In this document: positions 1 through 3,000 of the stretch, piece after piece
How positions within the stretch are numbered: the stretch's first letter is position 1
How the letters are laid out: each line of letters starts with the position of its first letter
Assembly: GCA_002789955.1 (NCBI GenBank)
Contig: PFUG01000149.1
Span: 7,445 to 40,797 of the forward strand
DNA length: 33,353 nt
From: Deltaproteobacteria bacterium CG_4_9_14_3_um_filter_63_12
GTDB lineage: Bacteria > Myxococcota_A > Bradymonadia > UBA4248 > UM-FILTER-63-12
Direction of reading: 5' to 3'
Program-made: the position numbers and the translations under genes
The notes under the pieces: model-generated
What the model was told of the DNA's origin: nothing
Seen by the model: the letters and a program-made list of their open reading frames with translations, nothing else
The model's database searches: none

Positions 1-3000
1 AGGCTTGGGCGTGGCGCCAGGGCGAGGGGCCGGGGTGGAGGAATTCGACCGAGGGTTCGCGGTGGGATTCGTGGAGGGTGAAGGCGGCTTCGACGGTGGC
101 GAAGATTTGGTCGGCGTTGGCGATGGGGAAGAGGGGGAGGCGGTTGACGTCGCCGACTTCGAAATGAACGCCAGGGTTGAGTGAAGCAAGGATCGCACGG
201 GCGCGACTGGAGTTCATCGCACAGACCGCGCTGGGCAAGTCGGCGGGGAAGACCGAGGAGCCCATGTTGCCAATGATGCAACTCATCCGATGGACCTGGC
301 CGGCGAATCTGCTGCCAATCATTGCGAACCCAACACCAAGCCGAAAGTACACGTCTTCGTTGCGAACTTGCCGGGTGTATGAACCATATTGAGCTTCAGC
401 TTTTGATTTGACCTCAAGACCATGAAACCGCCACTGGAGACGGTCCCGCAGGTCGATCATCCATTCCCGGCCCTCAGCCCCAAGCAGAAACGGGCTCCAC
501 TGCTCGCTGTTTGCTTCCCACCATCTTCGTACGAACCTCGGGTTGTTTCCGGTGGTCAACCCGAAGCGTGCTGGCGACACCTCCCCAATCAGCGGCGCAC
601 TCTGGTACGCCCGGAGCATCTCCTCACCCCACCAATAAACCAACGGCCACTCCGGCACGACCTTCAGGGCCTCGGCCCTGAAGTCGTGCCGTCCGACGTG
701 TGCGAGTAGGCCAGCGGCCTTCTTCTCGAATTCCTCCTGCGTCCGCACGCGCTCTTGAGGGTCCGTTGGCGCAACAGCGACGGCTGAACGGTTCATTGCG
801 CCACGCGCAAACACCGACATTGCGACAGGGTTGTCGCGCATCTCACGAAACGCGCCCCACGAAACGTCTCCCAAAGCGGCCAGTGAGTGTTCTTGGAGCA
901 GGCACTCTCGCAGCCCCGAGTACTGCTTGATGAACATCCAGTTGCGCATGGTGAGCATGGCCGAGACGCCGCCGTCTTTGACGAGCTCGAGCCCGCGCAA
1001 CAGGAAAGCCGCGAAGAGGTCGGCCTTGCCGAGTGGGTAGTGGGTCTCGATGTACTTCGAGTCGGCCATCTTCGAGGTGCCCTGGTAGGGCGGGTTGGCG
1101 ACGACGAGGTGGTAGGTGCCTTCGCGCAGGAGTCGTACGAAGCGGACTCCGGCGGCGAGTTGCTCGCCGCGGAGGCGCAGGCCGAGGTCGTCGCCGCGGG
1201 TGTGGGTGGCGAGGAAGGCTTCGATTGCTGGGTAGAGGTCTGCGGCCCCTGCGGGGACCTCACCCCCCCCAGCCCCCCCTCTCCGCGAGCGGAGAGGGGG
1301 GGAGCCCGTACTCCCCCCCTCTCCCTCGGGGGAGAGGGGGGGCTGGGGGGGGTGAGGCCCGAACGCTTGCAGCAACGCGCTCAGGTGCTCTGGGGTGACG
1401 TCTTCGTTGCGGAGGCGGAGAACCCACATGCCAGTCGACTGTAGGATCTCGGTGCGGGCTTGGTCGTAGTCTTGTTGGCTGTCGTGAATGGGGCCGTCGA
1501 GCTCTAGGATGATTCCGTGCTCGGCGCAGTAGAAGTCGACGATGAAACCTAGAATCGGCTGTTGGCGGCGGAACTTGAGGTTGTGGATTTGGCGGTTTCG
1601 CAGGAGCGCCCAGGCTTTTGCTTCGGCGTCGGTGGGCTCTTTTCGAAAGCGCTTGGCCAGCGCTAGCTTCTCCGGCGTAATGAATGGGCTGTCGACGACC
1701 CGAAAACGAGGGGGTTTGGCGAACGCCCACTCATCCTCTTCAATGATGGGGGGGCCAAAGAGCTCGGTTTGGAGCTCGGGTCGGCGCTCGTGTTGGTCGA
1801 GGGCGGCTTCGACGGCTTGGTCGATCTTGAGGAGGCTGCCCAGGTGATCGGCGCCGCGTAGGGCGTGGACGATGGTGTCGGTCAGGGCTCCGGGGATGCC
1901 GGTCTGGCGCTCGACCTTGTGGCGCAGCTCGACCAGGGCTGGGTCGTCGTCGGGCAGGCTGGCCAGGCGGAGGTTGGCGGCCACCAGGTTGAGGCGCTCG
2001 GGGCGCGCGTCGGGCGCCACCTGCTTGGCCTTGAGCCAGAGCGCGGCGGCGGCGATCTGGATGGCGCGGGGGTCGAGGTCGAGGCCGTGCAGGTTGTTTT
2101 CTAGGATGCTCTCGACTGCGTGGCGCAGGCTGACCTCACCCCCCCGGCCCCCCTCTCCCCCCTGGGAGAGGGGGGAGCTGGCTCGGTGGCGGGCCTCTTC
2201 TTGGTAGAAAGCTAGGAGCAGATCGAAGGCGACGACTAGGAAGTGGCCGGAGCCTACGGCCGGGTCCAGGAGCTTGAGGTCGCGCACCGAGTCGGGGGCG
2301 TGGGCCACGGCCTCGTCGGGGATGGGCTGGGGGACGTAGTAGGCCCAGCGGCGCTCGAGTTCAGAATACAGTGGCATCAGCTCGGTGAGCCCGACAGTCC
2401 CTTCCTCCCGCTGTGCCCTCCAAGCAACCCGCCGCTCCTCGAGCCCCCACAGCACCGAGCCCCTCTCCCCGGCGAAGCCGGGGCCGCTGCCGCCATACTC
2501 CCCCTCTCCTGTCAAGGAGAGGGGGTCGGGGGGTGAGGTGCGTGAGCTCACGTCCGCCGTCCAGCCATTCTTCGCGCAGATGGCCAGCCACAGGGGATTG
2601 AGGCTGTTCTGCAGCAGCCAGTCGACCATGTAGCGCTCGGTGAACATCTGGGTCTTGGAGGCGAGCTCGTGGGGCTCGACCTTGCCGCCGCCGTTGAGCT
2701 TGGCGTCCAGGGCCTCGCGCTCGGGGTCGTTCCAGTACTGGTAGACCCAGCCCAGGGTCATGTCGTCGCTCCAGCAGGAGTCGAGCGCGGGGTCGTTGAG
2801 GGCGTCGACGACGTGGCGCAGGGTGGCGGCGGGGATGGGGATCAGCTCGGCCACGCCGGCCGGGCCGTAGAGGCCGGGCAGGTCGGTGGCCAGGTCCTCG
2901 AAGACGAGCTGGAGCAGGAAGGCGTAGCCCTCGCTCTCGTTGCCCCGGGTGTTCTTGCACAGGGCGGGGGCGAGCTGGCGGAAGTCTTGGTAGGCGCGGC

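Follow-up and report, generated by a model that had tools for sequence, protein, structure and literature searches.

In the bacterial genome analyzed here, a type 6 BREX operon contains a pglX gene whose methyltransferase is interrupted in frame by a nuclease domain, which raises the question of whether this domain is a working part of a defence enzyme or a mobile element that resides within one. The window, a stretch of 33,353 nucleotides of contig C546 from a metagenome-assembled genome (G000; 8.3 Mb, 689 contigs, 2.81% contamination), holds the first 1135 of 1655 codons of pglX on the minus strand (positions 2-3406). A sequence-only reading had described this frame as open from 3406 to the end of the window, and along the remainder of the contig it reaches its stop codon at C546:5883, passing through two runs of masked Ns. 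PADLOC calls the host protein PglX (PDLC02523, 1347 bits), and the match lies in a complete operon of brxE, brxA, brxB, brxC, pglX, pglZ, brxD and brxHI, of which brxC (5537-9172) and brxB, brxA and brxE (9169-11515) share the window and the minus strand. The region of SAM motif I (LDPAVGSGHF) is found at 2240-2269 and the catalytic NPPY motif, which is intact, at 1085-1096, both on the minus strand. Between brxC and pglX (3403-5275) lie genes for an AAA_21/AbiEii-type ATPase (PADLOC PDC-M07A) and for a 212-amino acid protein without matches, which may form another defence system nested in this one. Close to the C-terminal end of PglX (L026, approximately 6305-6350), a further in-frame insert missing from relatives, with residues GFDLNAESPRRGDAEGF, derives from an unrelated repeat family of the CGCAGAG type.

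The nuclease domain lies between motif I and NPPY, within an in-frame insert of approximately 165 residues on the minus strand. Comparison with relatives places this insert at roughly 1247-1753, which agrees with the location first proposed for it (1259-1717) and makes it slightly larger. The earlier reading of a complete DUF559 domain with D624, E635 and D637 intact was borne out: the Vsr/EDxHD-like endonuclease domain (1382-1666, minus strand; residues 581-675) matches Pfam DUF559 over residues 582-673 (E=1.9e-30; 105 bits against a cut-off of 20.6) and is flanked on both sides by Eco57I/MmeI methyltransferase matches. E595, H641 and D648 are present as well, and the conserved E, D, E, D, H and D columns to which these six residues belong, which are invariant or nearly so in an alignment of 28 DUF559 sequences, assign the domain to the family together with the profile match. 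On its 3' side only, the domain is accompanied by a REPIN-like palindrome pair (1255-1360), made up of two hairpins with CCTCACCCC tails in inverted orientation whose 50-nt arms are 88% complementary and separated by a 6-nt spacer; the palindrome had been recognized before, with a length of 98 bp that we revise to about 106 bp. It reflects more than chance, since the relatives lack the insert. Because no in-frame ATG, GTG or TTG occurs from residue 480 to residue 659 of PglX, the domain would be made only as part of PglX, and independent internal translation was ruled out. An intein was likewise rejected, given that Pfam detected no intein match and that an insert of this length leaves little room for one. 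In a structural model of full-length PglX, the insert was predicted with low confidence, since it is covered by no other alignment row, and for this reason no claim about domain packing rests on the model.

A comparison with other PglX proteins had been proposed as a check, and it indicates that the insert region is not native. At the equivalent site, all 20 orthologous PglX proteins examined (44-69% identical over the C-terminal query) lack DUF559 and possess a short variable linker of roughly 18-25 residues, thereby excluding DUF559 as a native PglX domain. The same PglX contains three additional palindrome-only in-frame inserts, at residues 287-317 (2456-2548, minus strand), at residues 409-425 (2132-2182, minus strand) and, beyond the window, at residues 'GSPLSLRGEGGRGGE', and the relatives lack every one of them. 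Among these relatives, only that of genome G170 has a palindrome of its own, which lies at a different place and leads into a DUF559. As with Rickettsia palindromic elements, the palindromes in the PglX frame are predicted to be kept in the protein. Just 3' of brxC, a palindrome copy (5510-5533) has a 24-nt arm complementary to 2132-2155, and three 36-bp tandem repeats (TCCGACTCCCGGTCCGACTCCCCCTCTCCGTTG..) at 5403-5510 end at this copy. Other repeats were noted at the brxD/brxHI junction (L026, 1084-1314; four near-identical 69-bp tandem palindrome copies), at window positions 15731-15860 (inverted repeat TCACCACAGAGAGCACAGAG) and at 19304-19715 (a stretch of 206 bp duplicated in direct tandem, with inverted TTCACCACGAAG repeats).

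The repeat unit consists of the tail CCTCACCCC and a hairpin of the form CCCCTCTCC-loop-GGAGAGGGG, and its inverted pairs resemble REPINs. Pattern searches for CTCACCCCCCN{2,8}CCCCTCTCC across the 8.3-Mb genome returned 23 matches, 13 of them on the BREX contig, compared to 0 for a reversed control. The earlier suggestion that similar repeats accompany stand-alone DUF559 genes was confirmed in a sample of 49 DUF559 loci that spans several phyla (that of the window, Chloroflexota, Acetothermia, Ignavibacteriae, Undibacterium, Planctomycetota and others), in which CCCTCTCC..GGAGAGGG-type palindromes occur at a density of 1.30/kb within 400 bp of DUF559 and of 0.09/kb at a distance of 600-1500 bp. 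These palindromes were present at 20 of 39 DUF559 loci and at 0 of 23 PIN-domain control loci from the window's phylum (p=1e-5), and half of the DUF559 loci have no palindrome of the searched type. Across 379 genomes, strong DUF559 matches were enriched in those with at least five palindromes (13/28 versus 30/351, p=9e-7). Our search of the open-access literature for DUF559 paired with palindromic repeats found nothing relevant.

In comparisons with PDB structures, the nuclease model matched the DUF559 protein 3hrl (1.9e-05), the homing endonuclease I-Bth0305I (3r3p, 6.3e-04) and Vsr (1vsr, 1.3e-02), with I-Bth0305I as the second-best PDB match both by fold and by profile, indicating a fold of the I-Bth0305I/Vsr type. 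The EDxHD or Vsr-like homing endonuclease family has been described (PMC3943268), and DUF559 was assigned to it in a study of inteins (PMC9403480). When 105 DUF559 domains were placed in a tree, the window's copy grouped (100/98) with three others: the only other DUF559 of the same genome (L002), which is stand-alone, 52% identical to the window's copy and has palindromes nearby; a stand-alone, palindrome-flanked copy (L081) from a member of the same order; and L124, which lies within a type ISP enzyme of genome G038. To explain the methyltransferase hosts, the well-supported branches require 5 or more label changes and the best tree 11; this tree is built from few columns and has many unresolved forks.

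The sequence-only reading had also suggested looking for palindrome-flanked DUF559 genes at other sites, and this search proved productive. Among strong DUF559 matches in open frames longer than 600 codons, mostly from fragmentary assemblies, we found 22 in-frame insertions, including the window and a partial case in G170 (G170:C248); this count leaves out low-scoring matches in long frames such as G201:C101 (E=2e-11), and two chimera-like candidates, judged by their frame lengths (G303:C24, 490 aa; G258:C142, 369 aa), were set aside with upstream frames that appeared to be noise. Sixteen of the 22 hosts are DNA methyltransferases, mostly enzymes of defence systems, and six are the methionine synthase MetH. 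The methyltransferases comprise PglX at different sites in three genomes (G000, G170 and G643), MmeI-like enzymes of G038 and G623 in which the domain immediately precedes NPPF, a placement like that in the window, two type ISP enzymes (G038 and G589), an N6/N4 Mod enzyme (G653), DUF1156 methyltransferases with four different sites (G592/G536, G687, G581 and G464), and Mod methyltransferases of G678, G402 and G412 in which the DUF559 sits within an intein. Counting MetH once, 12 of 13 independent non-intein sites are in methyltransferases, a proportion with a chance probability of about 4e-8 if methyltransferases are assumed to make up as much as 20% of eligible sequence. For PglX, the claim of a new architecture holds only in part, given that a mobile gene is also inserted in three other PglX proteins (L167, L261 and L197) and that the MmeI-like enzymes (L125 and L246) share a cassette just before NPPF. 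A search of plasmids yielded 35 records, none of which was annotated as a methyltransferase.

Every one of the 19 non-intein cassettes is accompanied by a hairpin within 250 bp on one side or the other, and for 15 of them this holds on both sides, whereas none of the three intein-borne DUF559s has a hairpin within this distance on either side. Palindromes and splicing look like alternatives. In the Mod inteins (L255, L258 and L260), DUF559 constitutes the endonuclease domain, intein profile matches are weak and limited to L258 and L260, and the insertion splits the catalytic motif (DPTC^..^CGSGTT), a site that would hardly tolerate an insert not removed by splicing. Comparison with relatives shows that the palindrome-associated cassettes in PglX and MetH are located in variable linkers.

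MetH offers a view of the same linker in different states. Within one Chloroflexota family it is either empty (GGFPTKHE), occupied by a solo palindrome (L275) or occupied by palindrome, DUF559 and palindrome, with the flanking repeats in direct orientation. The MetH of G429 carries the cassette while those of G792, G803 and G788 are without it, even though they are 92-94% identical over the adjoining domain. These empty and filled sites are consistent, at the level of sequence, with homing into a cassette-less allele. The linker is polymorphic across the MetH loci (L248, L251-L254, L259 and L262-L291) and holds other repeats too, such as QVDTYTSTQVDT. The MetH-embedded nucleases are under purifying selection, with a median dN/dS of 0.08 over 8 pairs with measurable, and high, dS. 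Because these copies form one clade in the domain tree, the pattern of presence and absence could also reflect an ancient single gain followed by losses.

A second PglX-like methyltransferase of the window's genome (L197, G000:C220, 1589-5761; PDLC02528, 1480 bits) contains a Y1 transposase of the RAYT type together with GTAGCAGCGGCTTCCAGCCGCTG repeats, inserted in frame just before SAM motif I, such that a known mobile gene family occupies a sister PglX in the same manner. We consider it probable that the insert in the window is a mobile, palindrome-associated DUF559 nuclease cassette, lodged in frame where a linker of pglX tolerates it and translated within PglX without being spliced out. 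That such cassettes recur in methyltransferases and also in an enzyme of core metabolism points to a mobile element whose survival depends on translation as part of its host protein, and of the two readings originally offered for this locus, the selfish cassette is well supported by the relatives, the other hosts, the palindrome statistics and the tree, while the defence fusion is weaker. The most economical explanation is that a homing-type cassette stays in the translated product instead of being spliced out. As a process, we infer that DUF559 would cut or nick a cassette-less site or a palindrome and that recombination repair would then copy the whole cassette, or the palindrome alone, into the break. 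Insertions that keep the frame open in flexible linkers would persist because, as we propose, the host protein remains able to fold and the nuclease is produced along with it; the PglX in the window probably still works. Recombination between flanking repeats may subsequently delete the nuclease and leave a solo palindrome. Several observations weigh against a mobile cassette: the palindrome of the window's insert is one-sided, half of the DUF559 loci are without the searched palindrome, the MetH cassettes are of one origin, and there is no evident reason for an element that moves at random to favour the genes of methyltransferases. Candidate reasons for this preference are that such genes are dispensable, rich in linkers and often transferred, that the nuclease has a site preference, or that a fused nuclease is of occasional benefit.

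One alternative is that another enzyme or ectopic recombination mobilizes the palindromes and that DUF559 is carried between them as a passenger. Solo palindromes far outnumber DUF559 in the window's genome (23 pattern matches and 2 DUF559), 15 of the 28 palindrome-rich genomes have no strong DUF559, and Y1 transposases are present in G000. However, the repeats beside the RAYT-type transposase in the second PglX (L197) are GTAG-type REPs and not the palindromes associated with DUF559. The correlation of palindrome abundance with DUF559, the strong purifying selection on the MetH-embedded copies and the role of DUF559 as the endonuclease of three inteins that have no palindromes also argue against a passenger, an explanation that we regard as unlikely.

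The domain could instead have been recruited into a functional methyltransferase-nuclease fusion, a one-protein restriction enzyme that cuts non-methylated or phage DNA. The predominance of methyltransferases, mostly of defence systems, among the hosts would fit this explanation, as would the intact active site and the lack of a separate start codon. Nonetheless, insertion positions vary even within a host family, as the DUF1156 enzymes and the PglX proteins illustrate, MetH is also a host, a transposase is similarly inserted in another PglX, palindrome-only inserts accompany the cassettes and none of the 20 relatives has the domain at the window's site, so that we find a functional fusion improbable. 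That the locus is an assembly chimera or a contaminant is very hard to credit, since despite the fragmentation and contamination of this genome and the N runs in pglX, the frame is open through host, insert and host, many independent assemblies show this arrangement too (among them a 1.16-Mb contig in G429) and the DUF559 copies most closely related to this one belong to the same genome and order.

The mobile cassette shares features with several known systems. Like EDxHD homing endonucleases such as I-Bth0305I, it shows a Vsr-like nuclease fold, and in three Mod methyltransferases DUF559 resides in an intein; unlike them, the cassette in PglX lacks both a splicing domain and an intron, stays in the protein and lies beside palindromes in a variable linker and not in a conserved motif. 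RAYT/REP/REPIN systems (PMC3116915, PMC3733652) likewise have tailed hairpins, single or in inverted pairs, around a nuclease gene and solo copies elsewhere, an arrangement in which the window's copy has the 3' pair only, and intragenic in-frame REPs have been described, many of them in DNA repair genes (PMC3733652). In contrast to RAYTs, which are Y1 (HUH) transposases, DUF559 is a PD-(D/E)XK-type nuclease, its repeats carry CCTCACCCC as their tail in place of GTAG or CGTC, and a whole nuclease gene, beyond the repeat alone, lies inside the host frame. Rickettsia palindromic elements are also found in frame in protein-coding genes and are translated (PMC10969869), but we found no nuclease tied to them in the literature consulted, whereas the palindromes described here flank one. 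Type IIG and other single-chain restriction-modification enzymes combine methyltransferase and nuclease in one polypeptide as well; DUF559, by contrast, occupies scattered internal positions beside repeats, and relatives are without it.

There is perhaps an even chance that these cassettes represent a distinct class of bacterial mobile element, in which REPIN-like repeats bracket a Vsr-type nuclease in place of a RAYT and the entire unit spreads by in-frame, unspliced insertion into linkers that tolerate it, markedly favouring DNA methyltransferase genes, as a translated counterpart of the intein. DUF559 is a candidate for the enzyme behind a palindromic repeat family that is widespread and for which we found no account of a mobilizer, and its mode of residence would give a homing-type nuclease an alternative to splicing for residing within a coding gene. 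The finding also serves as a warning that nuclease domains in BREX and restriction genes can be parasites instead of parts of the defence, and it makes testable the question of why mobile nuclease genes, DUF559 and also RAYT, accumulate in the genes of DNA methyltransferases.
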